From Candidatus Desulfobulbus rimicarensis (GTDB lineage Bacteria > Desulfobacterota > Desulfobulbia > Desulfobulbales > Desulfobulbaceae), in NCBI GenBank assembly GCA_008633435.1, contig RKSL01000007.1:1-41345 (forward strand): a DNA stretch of 41,345 nucleotides, written 5' to 3'. Below the pieces are notes generated by a model. That model made no database searches. It was not told where the DNA came from and saw only the letters and a list, made by a program, of their open reading frames with translations. Below, in pieces: positions 1,934 to 36,478 of this stretch. Position 1 is the first letter of the stretch; every line of letters begins with the position of its first letter. Both the position numbers and the translations under genes were made by a program.

Positions 1934-2181
1934 ACCGCCATGCCCCGGCGGTACAACACAGCATGAAAATCAATAGGTTGCGCCAAAAACAATGCGTAAC
2001 ACGATTTTCAGATAAACAAAAAATTCCCCGAATAACAAGAGGTTCCATTATTTGGCTGCCAACAGAAAAATTGTTGATGTTTTGCTGCCCTTCCGGTGGT
2101 TATCCCGCTAAGTGGTAGCTGTATAGCGTTGTGGTCTCTCGTTGCCACCAGGCGTGTCATTCCCTCTATGTAGGAGATTTT

Positions 2182-3126
2182 ATGAAAAAATTTGTCCTTG
2201 TCTTCTGTGCTTTTTTGCTTGTGACGATTATTGTATTGCTGGTCAGTAATTCTGCATTGAGATTTCATAAACCCGCTTTCCATGGGCAAATAATTGACCA
2301 TGAAACCCGGCAGCCGATTGAGTATGTGGTTGTGGTGGCGGTCTACCGAGTACGTAATATCTTTGGTGGGGTGCTTGGACCTGTGTTCCGTGATATCGGT
2401 TTTAAGAAGATGGTGACGGATAAAAAAGGCATGTTTACCATTCCTGAGTTTACTGCCTGGAGTAAACTCTTTGCCCGGCCATATAGAACGCGATTTATTA
2501 TTTATCGGGCGCGCTATTCGAACTTTGGGATTCCTGAAAAAATATTTCCGGCAGCAAAATGCTGGCATGAAAATCCTGCGTATTTTTTCCCTGAATGCTT
2601 CCCAGAAGCGCTGTTTAGTAAAGAAATCGGCAGTAAAGAGCAGATCGTGAAAAATGAGGATACGGGAGAGACTCTCACTATTACCAACGGTATTATTGAG
2701 TTGGTACGCACGAAATCCAGCACTGAGATAAATCGAACCAGGGCAATTATAGCACCAGAAACAGATTCTCAGTTTGTCTGGAAGATGGTCAAAGAAGAAG
2801 ATGAAAGATACAGGAGAACGTTCAGAAGGCCGTGGTCGTTGCCAGCTCCCCCTCCGGAATCGGCAACACTTATGCTGAAAAAAATCCCGGCGCGACAGCC
2901 TGCCGGAGCAACCACGAAATCCAGCACTGAGATAAATCGAACCAGGGCAATTATAGCACCAGAAACAGATTCTCAGTTTGTCTCGAAGATGGTCAAAGAA
3001 GAAGATGAAAGATACAGGAGAACGTTCAGAAGGCCGTGGTCGTTGCCAGCTCCCCCTCCGGAATCGGCAACACTTATGCTGAAAAAAATCCCGGCGCGAC
3101 AGCCTGCCGGAGCAACAATCCGGTAG
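2182..3126 (+). CDS. Secreted or membrane-anchored protein with carboxypeptidase-regulatory-like domain and duplicated C-terminus
   Basis: The 314-residue protein starts at ATG 2182, behind a clear AGGAG at 2172-2176. Earlier in-frame starts lack this. Residues about 3-22 are hydrophobic after two lysines and act as a signal anchor or signal peptide. The next part (FHGQIIDHETRQPIEYVVVV, later TDKKGMFTIPEF) has the pattern of the CarboxypepD_reg/transthyretin-like beta-sandwich found in many surface proteins. The C-terminal 136 residues are two consecutive copies of a 68-residue block rich in Lys, Glu, Arg and Pro, nearly identical at DNA level. Function is not known. The neighbours (a broken phospholipase-like gene upstream, repeats downstream) suggest a labile accessory patch. 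Confidence 0.7.
   Translation: MKKFVLVFCAFLLVTIIVLLVSNSALRFHKPAFHGQIIDHETRQPIEYVVVVAVYRVRNIFGGVLGPVFRDIGFKKMVTDKKGMFTIPEFTAWSKLFARPYRTRFIIYRARYSNFGIPEKIFPAAKCWHENPAYFFPECFPEALFSKEIGSKEQIVKNEDTGETLTITNGIIELVRTKSSTEINRTRAIIAPETDSQFVWKMVKEEDERYRRTFRRPWSLPAPPPESATLMLKKIPARQPAGATTKSSTEINRTRAIIAPETDSQFVSKMVKEEDERYRRTFRRPWSLPAPPPESATLMLKKIPARQPAGATIR
2711..3118 (+). repeat. Perfectly in-frame 2 x 204-bp tandem duplication
   Basis: Copy one spans 2711-2914 and copy two 2915-3118, each starting with CGAAATCCAGCACTGAG. I see one base difference (TGTCTGGAAG against TGTCTCGAAG, changing Trp to Ser). The unit is 68 codons long, so the frame is kept. Confidence 0.95.
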
Positions 3127-3563
3127 GCAGGATGTTCGTTTGCCAGCGACAACAGAGCCCAAAGGCTTTAGGCCACCTTGAAAAATTGCCTTCCGAAGTC
3201 TCGTAACCTCGGTTATCTCGCCAGATCTTTGGGTCACAGGAAAATGAAAAATGCTCACATCTGACTAATATGCTGCGCTTTTTAATTTTCCTGTTCCTCG
3301 GAGTCTCCCGGTGGTCGCTTACCTGACCTCGAACGAAAATTCTAATTTTTCAAGGCACCCTTTAAACAACATAATCTGCATCTTGCAGTTAGTGCCGGTG
3401 CAGAAATGGTTCTTTCGTCCAGATTTTGCGTCATGTTCTCCTGTTTTGAGGGGAGCTATAATCATCCGTCTCTGGGAATACCTGTGTTTATCCTTGTTTA
3501 TCCGTGATTTCATCAAAAAATGTTTTGCTGTTCCTGTAAACGTGCACGCCACAATGCCTGACT
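3127..3563. other. Gene-poor gap with dispersed repeat sequence
   Basis: I find no convincing gene in this 437-bp gap between two convergent genes. It holds one copy of the CTCGGAGTCTC repeat (about 3276-3356). It also holds a stretch near 3480-3515 with repeated TTTATCC words (CCTGTGTTTATCCTTG), which resembles low-complexity dispersed sequence. The short open frames here show no domain or ribosome binding site. Confidence 0.6.
3276..3356 (+). repeat. CTCGGAGTCTC-type dispersed repeat, copy 1
   Basis: The core CTCGGAGTCTCCCG, then GCTTACCTGACCTCGAAC, is shared with 7996-8072, and in shorter form with 8233-8270. An inverted partial copy lies at 7955-7975. The flanks on both sides of the core are T-rich or A-rich in both long copies. 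Confidence 0.6.
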
Positions 3564-7954: not shown

Positions 7955-8072
7955 GGAGGTAAGCGAAGACTCCGATATTACTTATATGCCTGTGCTTATT
8001 TTTCTTGCAATCCTCGGAGTCTCCCGCTGCTTGCGTACCTGACCTCGAGCAAAAAATTCATTTTTGGACAGA
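7955..8072. repeat. CTCGGAGTCTC-type dispersed repeat, inverted pair
   Basis: GGAGGTAAGCGAAGACTCCG at 7955-7974 is the inverted counterpart of the motif at 8013-8050 (CTCGGAGTCTCCCG, then GCGTACCTGACCTCGAGC). The right arm plus its T-rich left flank resembles the copy at 3276-3356 over about 75 bp. Together the arms could form a long hairpin with an A/T-rich loop, as MITE-like or REP-like elements do. Confidence 0.6.
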
Positions 8073-18733: not shown

Positions 18734-19142
18734 GCGTCTCTCTTCTTCTTGAAAAATGGGGCGGACTGTAAGCCGAATCCTGTACCTGCATAACAGGCCC
18801 TGATCATTTGACTGGGATGCCGGTCACCCGGCACCTCTTGCAACCTACCCGGAGACTTCAGGCGGGCAGCCCTCAGGCGTCTCTCTATTTGGTCTTGCAC
18901 CGGGTGGGGTTTACCCTGCCTTCCGTGTCACCACGGAAGCGGTGAGCTCTTACCTCGCCATTTCAACCTTACCTGTGAATGCATGCATTCCATCGGCGGT
19001 GTATTTTCTGTGGCACTTTCCTCCGGTTACCCGAAGTTCGCGTTACGAACCACCATGCCCTGCGGTGTTCGGACTTTCCTCTCCGGCATGATGCCGGAGC
19101 GACCAGGCGTCCGCCCCATTTTTCAAAAAGAAGAGAGGACGC
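18734..19142 (-). other. Long terminal inverted repeat extending the RNase P RNA P1 stem
   Basis: Bases 18734-18765 and 19110-19142 are reverse complements over about 32 positions, with one bulged base and one G.U wobble. The helix contains the canonical P1 and continues through about 23 more pairs beyond the mature ends. The distal part of the 3' arm is the sequence just in front of the ispDF start codon. Confidence 0.85.
18757..19118 (-). ncRNA. rnpB: RNase P RNA
   Basis: The catalytic RNA that trims tRNA 5' leaders. On the minus strand it starts GGGGCGGACGCCTGGTCGC and continues with the hallmark GAGGAAAGTCCGAACACCGC. It ends with GATTCGGCTTACAGTCCGCC, whose final part pairs with the first nine bases to form P1. 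The length, about 362 nt, fits bacterial type A. It sits between the zinc-ribbon gene and ispDF on the same strand, so processing from a common transcript is possible. I see no convincing own promoter in the 100 bp before it. Confidence 0.95.
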
Positions 19143-26785: not shown

Positions 26786-27286
26786 TGGGGCGATAATTGG
26801 TTATTAAACAATGTGAGCATAGCGTCTGTGGCTCTATTGGTCTGTGGTCTTGACACTGGTAAAGGGGTGCTGAGGAGGTTGTGTCTATTTCTTTATCCGT
26901 AACAGAAGACAGAAACCAGAGGACAGAAGACAGAGTTAGTTTCCGCCTGCGGCTTTATCACTGCAAATCTACATTCCGGCCTTCTGTTTCATCCTTTGTT
27001 GTGCCCGGCGCGCCGGGAATGCTGGTTTATCCGAAATTTGCAGCACCTGCGAACGTGCCATGCCGCAGTGACCGACTTTCACAGTTTTTTGTGGCTGGCG
27101 ATTATGGTCCAGCCATGCTGGTTTATCGCACATCAGATGTACCAAAAAAAGACAAAGTATACAAAAGACAGAGAGAAAATCACTTATTATATCAACAGTG
27201 CCGGGAGAATGTAGTCTTTGTTCGTTGTGCGCATGCGCGAATATCGTAGACTATATGCTCCCATGGGGGCAACTGGTGGTGAGTCC
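26786..27286. other. 500-bp gap upstream of the cobalamin promoter, with dispersed repeat
   Basis: No convincing gene. The left part (26886-26940) has repeated CAGAAGACAG words. A perfect 14-bp palindrome CCCGGCGCGCCGGG lies at 27004-27017 and borders the 96-bp dispersed repeat. A TGCGCATGCGCG palindrome lies near 27228. The 122-codon frame at 26881-27249 is translated repeat and is not supported. Confidence 0.6.
27019..27128 (-). repeat. 96-bp dispersed repeat, copy 3 (inverted)
   Basis: Read on the minus strand, this matches the tandem units inside cbiET (36242-36436) at about 90 percent by eye. It begins with GATAAACCAGCATGGCTGG and contains CACTGCGGCATGGCACG. A second GATAAACCAGCAT follows at the other end, as in the tandem array, so more than one unit boundary is retained. 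Confidence 0.85.
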
Positions 27287-27315
27287 TTGACTTGTCATGA
27301 GGACTTGGGTAAACT
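27287..27315 (+). promoter_or_regulatory. Sigma70-type promoter of the cobalamin operon
   Basis: TTGACT (27287-27292), a 17-base spacer and TAAACT (27310-27315). The predicted start, about 27322, coincides with the beginning of the riboswitch aptamer, which supports the call. Confidence 0.7.
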
Positions 27316-27321
27316 GTGTGC

Positions 27322-27490
27322 CGTTTTCAGGTGTCCGTAATATCGGATGAAAAGGGAACCCGGTGTAAATCCGGGACGGGCCCGCCGCTGTAACCGGGGA
27401 CGATCTCTGCATTATGTCACTGTTGGCGCAACCAATGGGAAGACGCAGTGGGAGGATGATCCGGAAGTCAGAAGACCTGCCTGAAGAGTA
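27322..27490 (+). ncRNA. Cobalamin riboswitch
   Basis: The leader carries the conserved core GATGAAAAGGGAA, CGGTGTAAATCCG, CCGCCGCTGTAACCGG and the B12-box AAGTCAGAAGACCTGCC (27466-27482). The outer stem pairs TTTTCAGG (27324-27331) with CCTGAAG (27480-27486). It senses adenosylcobalamin or a related corrinoid and sits in front of a terminator hairpin and cbiK, so it probably shuts the cobalamin operon when the vitamin is plentiful. Confidence 0.95.
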
Positions 27491-27548
27491 TCTGTGTCAC
27501 CCAGGCAAGGGGGCGTGGAAAGCGGTATTATCTGGGAGAAGAAGGGGC

Positions 27549-33966: not shown

Positions 33967-35067
33967 ATGACATCAAAACAAGCAAAGAAGAATACAAGTC
34001 TTCGCTCCGGTTTTACCACCGGGGCATGTGCGGCAGCAGCGGCAAAGGCTGCGGCATTGCTGCTGTTGTCCGGCAAAAAGGTGAGTCATGTTGACATCCC
34101 TTTTCCCACTGGAGACCGTCATGCTTTTGCGCTGCACTCCTGTGTTTTGCGCTGTGACAGGGGCGCGGCCTCGGTCATAAAAGATGCCGGGGATGACCCT
34201 GATGTCACCAATGGCGCAGAAATTATTGCTGTTGTTGAACGTAGTGGAGGTGAAGAGGGTGAGCGCAATGAAAATATCATCCTTCGGGGTGGGGCAGGAG
34301 TTGGTCGGGTAACCAAACCGGGGTTGCCTGTGGCTGTCGGCCAGCCGGCCATTAATCCGGTACCGCGCCAGATGATTTGTGAGGCTGTGACAGAGGCCAT
34401 TGCGGAGACTGGGACTGCCACGTCTTTGCAGGTGACAATTTCTGTGGCCAGTGGTCAGGAACTGGCCGAAAAAACTCTGAACAGCAGGCTTGGTATTGTC
34501 GGCGGTCTCTCGATTCTTGGAACCACGGGTATTGTCCGGCCGGTGTCAGCCAAGGCTTGGACTGATACCATTGATGCCTCCATGAGTGTTGCCCGTGCGT
34601 CCGGTCTGCGCGAAGTGATTGTGTCCACCGGGCGGACATCAGAGGCTGCAGCACAGCAGTTGCTCACCATGCCCGAAGAGGCACAGGTCATGATGGGGGA
34701 TTATCTTGCCCACGCGCTTCATTCGGCCAGGGAACATGGTTTTGAAAAGATTCATCTTGCTGGAATGTGGGCGAAAATTCTTAAATGCGCCCTGGAGATC
34801 CCCCAGACCCATGTCCGGCACGGAGCCTTGGAGGTTCGGCACGCCGTTACGCTGCTGACAAGGCTTGGCCTGGAAGAGGACGTTGCCCACAGTATGATAA
34901 CGGCCAATACTGCCCGGGAGATTTTATACCGTTTAATCAAAATGGGAAGAGAAGATATTGTCCGGAGAGTTTGTCTTAAGGCCAAAGTTTTTGCCATGAA
35001 AGAATCGGGTCTGCCTGTGGAAGTGTATCTGGTGACGTCTGAGGATGGAGTGGTGGTTCATGTCTGA
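33967..35067 (+). CDS. cbiD: Cobalt-precorrin-5B (C1)-methyltransferase
   Basis: Methylates C1 of the corrin ring in the anaerobic pathway. ATG 33967 is preferred to GTG 33958. The N-terminal RSGFTTGACAAAAAKAA is diagnostic, followed by DAGDDPDVTNGAEI and GVGRVTKPGLPVAVGQPAIN. The length of 366 residues is normal. The stop overlaps the start of cbiET by eight bases. Confidence 0.95.
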   Translation: MTSKQAKKNTSLRSGFTTGACAAAAAKAAALLLLSGKKVSHVDIPFPTGDRHAFALHSCVLRCDRGAASVIKDAGDDPDVTNGAEIIAVVERSGGEEGERNENIILRGGAGVGRVTKPGLPVAVGQPAINPVPRQMICEAVTEAIAETGTATSLQVTISVASGQELAEKTLNSRLGIVGGLSILGTTGIVRPVSAKAWTDTIDASMSVARASGLREVIVSTGRTSEAAAQQLLTMPEEAQVMMGDYLAHALHSAREHGFEKIHLAGMWAKILKCALEIPQTHVRHGALEVRHAVTLLTRLGLEEDVAHSMITANTAREILYRLIKMGREDIVRRVCLKAKVFAMKESGLPVEVYLVTSEDGVVVHV

Positions 35068-36478
35068 CATATCTGAAATATATGTCTTTGGTGTGTCTGG
35101 CACAGCCCTTGTTCCCGACCATGAACAGCTTCTGCGCACATGTCACGCTGTGGTTACTTCAAAGAGATTTTCTTCTTTGGTAACAAAGTATTGCGATACT
35201 GTCATCCCGGTTACTCCGCTTAAAAAAATGGTCGGGCAGCTCAGGGCGGCATTGTCATCGGGTAACGTGGCCGTGCTTGCTTCGGGTGATCCGCTGTTTT
35301 ACGGTATTGGCCGTACCCTGCTGAACAACTTTGCCAGTGAGCAGTTGCGGTTTTATCCGGCATTGTCTGCCATGCAGCTTGCCTGCGCCCGCTTTAAAAT
35401 GCCCTGGGATGATCTTTTTCTGCTCTCGCTCCATGGCCGTCAGCCTGGGGACGCTGTAGCACAGATTCTTTCCCGGCAACGGGTGATGTTGTTTACCGAT
35501 GGCAACAACTCCCCGGATATAATTGCGGCAACTCTGCAATCCCGGCTTAACAGCATGGGGCTTGCCGGCCAGGCCGGCGATATTCGGGTCGGGGTGGCCG
35601 AAAATCTTGGTCTGCCGGATGAACAGTTGACCAGGGGTACCCTTGCTGACATTGCCGCCAGAAAATTTGCTCCGCTCAATATGATGCTTGTTGAGCAACC
35701 GGCTGTGGTCGGCAAAGGCTCCGGGCTGGTTTTTGGCTTGCATGAAGATGAAATCAGCCATTCCAGGGGCTTGATTACCAAGGCTGAAGTACGGGCGGTT
35801 ATTCTGCATTGTCTTCGTCTGCCGGGCAGGGGCGTATTCTGGGACGTGGGTGGTGGCTCCGGTTCAGTTTCTGTGGAAGCAGCCCGACTCTGTGCTGATC
35901 TCCAGGTGTTTACTGTTGAGCAGAAGCTGGAAGGGCAGGAAAATATCAGCAAAAATATTTGCGATTTCCGTCTCTACAACATGCAGCTCGTCCGTGGGCG
36001 TGCCCCTGAAGCGTTGGTCGAACTGCCAGATCCCGATCGAATTTTCATCGGGGGCAGTGGCGGTGCGCTTGCATCAATAATTAAAGACTGTGCTGAACGG
36101 TTGCAAGCAGGTGGCAGAATGGTTGCCAGTGCAGTGCTGGCTGAAACGGCTGAAAAAGCCCCTGAACTCATGCGGAGCCAAGGGCTTCATGTTGAAGTGT
36201 GTCGTGTGGCCGTGACCCGTTATCACCCACAGCCGTCCCAAAAACCAGCATGGCTGGACCATAATCGCCAGCCACAACAAGCTCTGAAAGTTGGTCGCTG
36301 CGGCATGGCACGATCACAGGTACTGCAACTTTCAGATAAACCAGCATGGCTGGACCATATTCGCCAGCCACAACAAGCTCTGAAAGTTGGTCACTGCGGC
36401 ATGGCACGATCACAGGAGCAGCGACTTTCAGAGAAACAACGATTAAATCCCATTACCATAATTACCGGAAAGAAATGA
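35060..36478 (+). CDS. cbiET: Fused cobalt-precorrin-7 C5-methyltransferase / C15-methyltransferase (decarboxylating), with repeat-derived insert
   Basis: A 472-residue fusion. Residues 1-about 210 are CbiE (LASGDPLFYGIGRTL, FYPALSAMQLACARF). Residues about 225-395 are CbiT (TKAEVRAVILHCLRLPGRG, FWDVGGGSGSVSVEAARL, IFIGGSGG). The last 12 residues, RLNPITIITGKK, form the usual final strand of CbiT. Between VTRYHPQPSQ and this strand sit 64 extra residues encoded by two tandem 96-bp copies of a dispersed repeat (KPAWLDH...GMARSQ twice). The insert keeps frame and has no stop. It lies in a loop near the end, so activity could survive. Start ATG 35060 lies within the cbiD end; the stop overlaps the next start as ATGA. 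Confidence 0.93.
   Translation: MSDISEIYVFGVSGTALVPDHEQLLRTCHAVVTSKRFSSLVTKYCDTVIPVTPLKKMVGQLRAALSSGNVAVLASGDPLFYGIGRTLLNNFASEQLRFYPALSAMQLACARFKMPWDDLFLLSLHGRQPGDAVAQILSRQRVMLFTDGNNSPDIIAATLQSRLNSMGLAGQAGDIRVGVAENLGLPDEQLTRGTLADIAARKFAPLNMMLVEQPAVVGKGSGLVFGLHEDEISHSRGLITKAEVRAVILHCLRLPGRGVFWDVGGGSGSVSVEAARLCADLQVFTVEQKLEGQENISKNICDFRLYNMQLVRGRAPEALVELPDPDRIFIGGSGGALASIIKDCAERLQAGGRMVASAVLAETAEKAPELMRSQGLHVEVCRVAVTRYHPQPSQKPAWLDHNRQPQQALKVGRCGMARSQVLQLSDKPAWLDHIRQPQQALKVGHCGMARSQEQRLSEKQRLNPITIITGKK
36242..36436 (+). repeat. Two tandem copies of the 96-bp dispersed repeat inside cbiET
   Basis: Unit 1 is about 36242-36337 and unit 2 about 36338-36436. AAACCAGCATGGCTGGACCAT opens unit 1 shortly after its start, and the same word recurs 96 bp later. 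Both have GGCATGGCACGATCACAGG. The two differ at only a few positions in the first 75 bases. Ninety-six is a multiple of three, so each copy adds 32 residues. Confidence 0.95.

Follow-up and report, generated by a model that had tools for sequence, protein, structure and literature searches.

The window, the whole stretch of 41,345 nt that was analysed, carries a gene for CbiET whose reading frame continues through two copies of a repeat, which raises the question of what this repeat is and how it came to be read as protein. In the reading preferred here, two copies of a dispersed repeat of the Desulfobulbales, mobile-like and structured, make up this segment. As a whole explanation, including the insertion steps that it would involve, this reading is given a probability of about 0.78.

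The CbiET insert and the dispersal of its repeat

CbiET, a fused cobalt-precorrin C5- and C15-methyltransferase, is encoded at 35060..36478 (+) and was identified by matches to TIGR02467 (E 2e-46) and TIGR02469 (E 3e-34); the CbiE and CbiT equivalog models cover residues 17–210 and 239–359 respectively, and alignments to the CbiT relatives 3e05, 3njr and 1f38 in the PDB reach residue 384–387. Repeat unit 1 (AAACCAGC...TTTCAGAT; 36242..36337, +) and repeat unit 2 (36338..36433, +) lie head to tail inside this ORF and are read as KPAWLDHNRQPQQALKVGRCGMARSQVLQLSD and KPAWLDHIRQPQQALKVGHCGMARSQEQRLSE. The units are direct, tandem, 96 nt each and 93% identical, and the ORF runs without stop or frameshift to 36478. 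As the original prediction had stated, the repeat is thus present twice in frame and adds 64 residues, which begin at residue 395, in the variable linker preceding the last strand. Alignment with 29 insert-free orthologues placed the resumed CbiT coding sequence (KQRLNPITIITGKK, with the last strand NPITIITGKK) at 36434..36478 (+). The insert is most likely translated, surface-exposed and near-neutral, translation being judged solely from the openness of the frame, and is probably disordered.

A third 96-nt copy, likewise predicted to lie outside genes, was placed at 27029..27124 (-), between divergent genes. A cobalamin riboswitch (27312–27498; Rfam RF00174, E 1.5e-31) lies about 190 nt from this copy, upstream of the cobalamin gene cluster.

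When the unit was searched genome-wide, its left end (16 nt, up to two mismatches) was found at 123 places in the 2.92-Mb source genome, against 0 for a reversed-pattern control, and BLAST of the unit gave at least 61 matches, from 40 scored candidates; chance would give far fewer. Within approximately 440 kb around the copies, 119 units were mapped; they form 95 arrays, of which 75 are single, 17 double, 2 triple and 1 quadruple. The source genome is a 295-contig assembly, in which repeats at contig ends are undercounted. A covariance model, with up to 28 candidates scored per genome, detected divergent copies in at least 41 of 146 Desulfobulbales genomes, and BLAST against 57 genomes from the family and order detected them in at least 19. 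A single-contig relative gave 69 matches with E<=1, and 34 of these had E<=0.001. A strict pattern applied to about 85,000 species genomes matched 60 contigs, all labelled Desulfobulbaceae, Desulfocapsaceae, Desulfoarculaceae, Desulfobulbus or unplaced Deltaproteobacteria. The repeat is therefore present in high copy number and recurs across the order. No copy was found in the phages, plasmids and viral contigs searched, and a literature search for a described Desulfobulbales repeat found none in the papers covered, beyond which a description may exist.

Element structure, target preference and arrays

The consensus unit, AAACCAGCATGGCTGGACCATAATCGCCAGCC-ACAAAAAGCT-ATGAAAGT...ACTTTCAGAT, is 96 nt long, starts with AAACC and ends with GAT. 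Each unit has two stem-loops with CACAACAAA between them (CACAACAAG/CACAAAAAG in the CbiET units). RNAalifold, run on the whole alignment, returned nothing beyond a short invariant CCAGC/GCTGG hairpin, so both stems were specified manually (stem 1, GGCTGG/CCRGCC; stem 2, TGAAAGTY/RACTTTCA) and counted against controls. Over 47 diverse copies stem 2 had 35 cells with two-sided compensatory change, a count reached by 0 of 500 shuffles, and slid versions gave 2–12 cells. Terminal inverted repeats were sought and none were found; the consensus ends AAACCAGCAT and TTTCAGAT do not pair.

The third copy abuts, head to tail, a 134-nt sister element of family II (26895..27028, -) with left end AAACCAGCAT, central CACAACAAA, right end GAT and other stems. 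Like family I, sister families II and III have AAACC at the left end, GAT at the right end and the CACAACAAA box; their stems are different, with CCCGGCGCGCCGGG and ATGAAACAGAAG...CTTCTGTTACGGAT in family II and TGCCTTGATGGCA and ATGAAAATC...GATTTTCAGAT in family III. Both abut family I units head to tail at the same junction. The single-contig genome G009 has the same element plan, with extra hairpin modules in the loops.

A second dispersed repeat is present in the window at 3295–3349 and 8011–8065 (82% identical). Read as the reverse complement, it includes GGTAAGCGACC..GGGAGACTCCG, a module also located inside main-repeat stem-loops of G009 (L321, L325, L327, L329, L330), which suggests nested or modular repeats. 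At L233:3056–3363 a unit is split by about 200 nt between stems 1 and 2; it may be another member of the family or the result of a nested insertion.

The flanks of 49 arrays were compared at the junctions. The 5' flank ended in AT in 34/49 and in GAT in 21/49, and the 3' flank began with AAA in 29/49, a preference that could partly be due to decay or to errors of a few bases in placing the ends. Permutation tests on the junction bases of these arrays gave no left–right correlation and hence no sign of target duplication. The preferred target, GAT^AAA, is the element's own end-to-start junction (CAGAT|AAACC), from which head-to-tail arrays of exact period are predicted. In agreement with this prediction, 24 head-to-tail junctions were counted and no inverted neighbours were found within 35 nt, so that the relative orientation of neighbours is fixed. 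Adjacent units were as little as 78% identical, where random pairs average 81%; neighbours this divergent, or of different families, indicate that insertion, and not duplication alone, contributed to the growth of at least some arrays.

For the CbiET pair itself, the chances are only slightly below even that one insertion was followed by local duplication, through slippage or unequal exchange. Its two units are mutual nearest neighbours (89/96), and some other arrays, such as L171, hold adjacent units that are 98% identical and have the appearance of local duplicates, not of repeated insertions. However, the next-nearest unit matches at 88/96, an excess of one base, which makes a second insertion and a local duplication indistinguishable here, and other arrays mix families at one junction or hold units 78–79% identical.

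Under the preferred reading of a mobile-like repeat, a putative structure-recognising recombinase acting in trans would read the stem-loops and ends and place copies at GAT^AAA in one orientation. An old copy would be a good target because the element's end and start recreate GAT|AAAC, and new copies landing at its edge would build exact 96-nt head-to-tail arrays.

It is unlikely that the repeat instead derives from REP/RAYT or IS200/IS605 elements and was mobilised as single-stranded DNA by a Y1 (HUH) transposase. REP/BIME sequences with RAYT and short elements derived from IS200/IS605 have hairpins, high copy number, clustering and no target duplication, as here, and the end-near hairpins, fixed 5' target and absent target duplication of the repeat resemble IS200/IS605. 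In addition, the source genome has four Y1_Tnp matches, GTGG is located at the foot of stem 1 on the reverse strand, and the strong copies of G009 are opposite to the leading strand in 16/20 cases (p 0.012, in a partly post hoc test). The source genome has no such strand bias (49/93), however, and the bias was therefore left unused. Y1_Tnp alone was searched for as a transposase-bearing relative, and the 30 Y1_Tnp loci examined in nine genomes (89 kb) had no repeat within about 1.5 kb; G008 (97% completeness) has 13 repeat matches and no Y1_Tnp. The 3' flank of the repeat is conserved as well, which IS200/IS605 transposition is not known to require. Finally, REPs are 20–40 nt (PMC3733652), whereas the Desulfobulbales repeat is 96 nt and did not flank the Y1_Tnp gene at any of these 30 loci.

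Distinctly less probable still is a functional role, in which the repeat would be kept as a conserved structured RNA or regulatory DNA element and spread by recombination, its in-gene copies being accidental. Order-wide stem-loop covariation and the mostly intergenic location of the copies would be consistent with such a role. Against it, Rfam families gave no match at the repeats of the window and four array loci at gathering or permissive thresholds, and orientation to genes is not fixed (49 same, 46 opposite). Divergent, convergent and co-directional gaps are all occupied alike, and a fixed insertion target combined with head-to-tail arrays is better fitted by mobility.

In-gene copies, reading frame and empty sites

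Genes were called by a simple codon-usage method with 82% coverage, so the calls are approximate. Eight well-supported arrays lie inside genes and 17 others are at the ends of contigs or of the retrieved sequences. The in-gene share of 8/78 arrays, compared with 82% coding sequence, indicates depletion from genes. Seven of the host genes were identified by Pfam/NCBIfam: CbiET (two units, 36242–36433), an ABC-transporter ATPase (two units, L213), a BtrH-related acyltransferase DarH (L216), an HI0933-like FAD enzyme (L223), an acyl-ACP ligase/acyltransferase in which the array adjoins or lies within the phosphopantetheine domain (L226), the EF-P lysine ligase EpmA (L227) and a DUF2868 protein (L242). 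The eighth, at L202, encodes an unnamed protein and contains a partial unit. In-frame insertion therefore affects CbiET and at least seven more genes of the source genome. Repeat-spanning ORFs in L174, L190, L210, L197, L132, L135 and L172 were left out of the count, being without Pfam support or with a weak or absent gene call.

All eight in-gene arrays are in the sense orientation (p 0.004) and in frame 0, and the nine full units found in genes all measure exactly 96 nt and are open in that frame. Frame 0 is open in only 22/54 units outside genes (Fisher p 8.5e-4), which demonstrates selection on the frame. Undisturbed GATAAA sites in the same sequence numbered 171 sense phase 0, 46 sense phase 2, 198 antisense and 101 intergenic; the surviving in-gene arrays are all on the sole phase and strand that remain open. 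Only one of the six frames (KPAWLDH) is reliably open, which limits in-gene survival to sense phase-0 insertions. Survivors in genes would thus be sense insertions at codon phase 0, often at GAT AAA (Asp-Lys), in loops that tolerate 32 extra residues, and all other in-gene insertions would have been purged. One unit with this frame is also contained in a YdbH-like protein encoded by a second Desulfobulbaceae genome (HyVt-474, L150).

Relatives were then compared at the sites of insertion. A CbiET match was present in 36/57 genomes of the family and order, the source genome counted, and in nearly all relatives it ended at query residue 387–402. Translation of 29 orthologues through their stops gave a short and variable linker from ...VTR to NPITII, with the 64 residues present in 0/29. 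In the nearest orthologue (G004, 69% identity) the linker reads VTRFPGEQEKEQHFNPITIITGKK. The G009 linker is longer but unrelated to the repeat. This other expansion (L050) reads EQECVEDRQCVVDRRQPRQ and contains an internal near-repeat, indicating that the CbiT linker is a recurrent expansion site. The target in CbiET would accordingly have been a hypervariable linker before the last strand. For the HI0933-like flavoprotein, the orthologues in G001 and G004 have their two halves directly joined exactly where a 32-residue block (residues 140–171) is present here, placing the insert, judging from the sequence, at a turn between two strand-like segments. The EpmA insert is within a linker whose length varies among relatives.

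Removal of the insert at the RNA or protein level, in the manner of a mini-intron or intein, would leave the enzyme unchanged and render insertions harmless, and a hairpin structure is present, but this is very improbable. Copies that are removed need not stay open, yet 9/9 in genes are open against 22/54 outside; intron or ribozyme matches are absent at the repeats of the window and four array loci, and 32 residues are too short for an intein. Least credible of all, to a degree that is practically negligible, is that the open, stop-free segment is an ordinary conserved part of CbiET, since where the original prediction would have expected such a part to be conserved in relatives without further genomic copies, the alignment gave 29/29 inspected orthologues without the insert and the genome gave more than 100 copies, with the peptide recurring in seven unrelated proteins.

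A different kind of in-frame event is present at 2709–3116, where two identical (100%) 204-bp tandem copies of 68 codons lie in frame near the 3' end of the ORF 2131–3126 (+). This is a recent in-frame duplication.

Comparison with known repeats

The original prediction had likened the repeat to the Rickettsia palindromic elements (RPEs). RPEs are approximately 100–150 nt, occur in many copies with one open frame, and insert in frame and in sense into unrelated genes as well as into spacers (PMC2229807, PMC10969869; Ogata et al. 2000). In this mode of action the likeness holds: the Desulfobulbales repeat is also in frame, in sense and in one frame, in unrelated protein genes and in spacers. 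Membership of the RPEs does not hold. RPE ends pair through a 12-bp terminal inverted repeat to form one long hairpin (PMC2229807, PMC10969869), whereas the repeat described here has no terminal inverted repeats, two separate, side-by-side stems, a GAT^AAA target and head-to-tail arrays. Only 8/78 arrays are in genes here, compared with nearly half reported for RPEs, and the lineage is Desulfobulbales, of another phylum, not Rickettsia and relatives. The repeat is set apart from RPEs by this description.

Small non-autonomous repeats with open frames and in-frame gene fusions also include ERIC/RU-1, YPAL/RU-2, RU-3 and the Neisseria NEMIS/Correia elements (Delihas, PMC2759123, PMC2229807). ERIC, RU-2 and NEMIS duplicate their target, and terminal inverted repeats are present in most; neither feature was detected for the Desulfobulbales repeat, which in both respects also departs from the usual description of a MITE. 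In the Caulobacter CIR, the 5' and 3' parts form separate stem-loops, stops occur in all frames and no copies are found in genes (PMC2229807). The Desulfobulbales repeat resembles CIR in its separate stem-loops but has an open frame and occurs inside genes. Its arrays resemble those of integron cassettes in that different interiors have one shared head-to-tail junction. In contrast to cassettes, the units are without genes and are dispersed genome-wide. The core of integron attC sites is GTTRRRY, which the junction does not resemble by eye.

Taken more broadly, and with a somewhat less than even chance, the repeat may belong to an order-wide superfamily of structured mini-elements with at least three interior types in one genome and with only the ends and central box in common, for which a junction-like target without duplication, mixed head-to-tail arrays, recurrent donation of 32 residues to proteins and a putative recombinase would be characteristic.

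High-frequency in-frame insertion of selfish repeats is best documented in Rickettsia, whose obligate intracellular life makes relaxed selection an easy explanation. In the present case a selfish repeat probably supplies new protein sequence far from that group, in Desulfobulbales genomes of about 3 Mb and in housekeeping proteins such as EpmA, the B12 methyltransferase and an acyl-carrier-type domain. One genome offers several natural insertion experiments with inferable empty sites, and the repeat family has an explicit, testable self-targeting rule. For annotation, the peptide KPAWLDHNRQPQ should be regarded as a repeat and not as a domain. Elsewhere in the window, a class A RNase P RNA was located at 18753–19118 (-) by a full-length model match.
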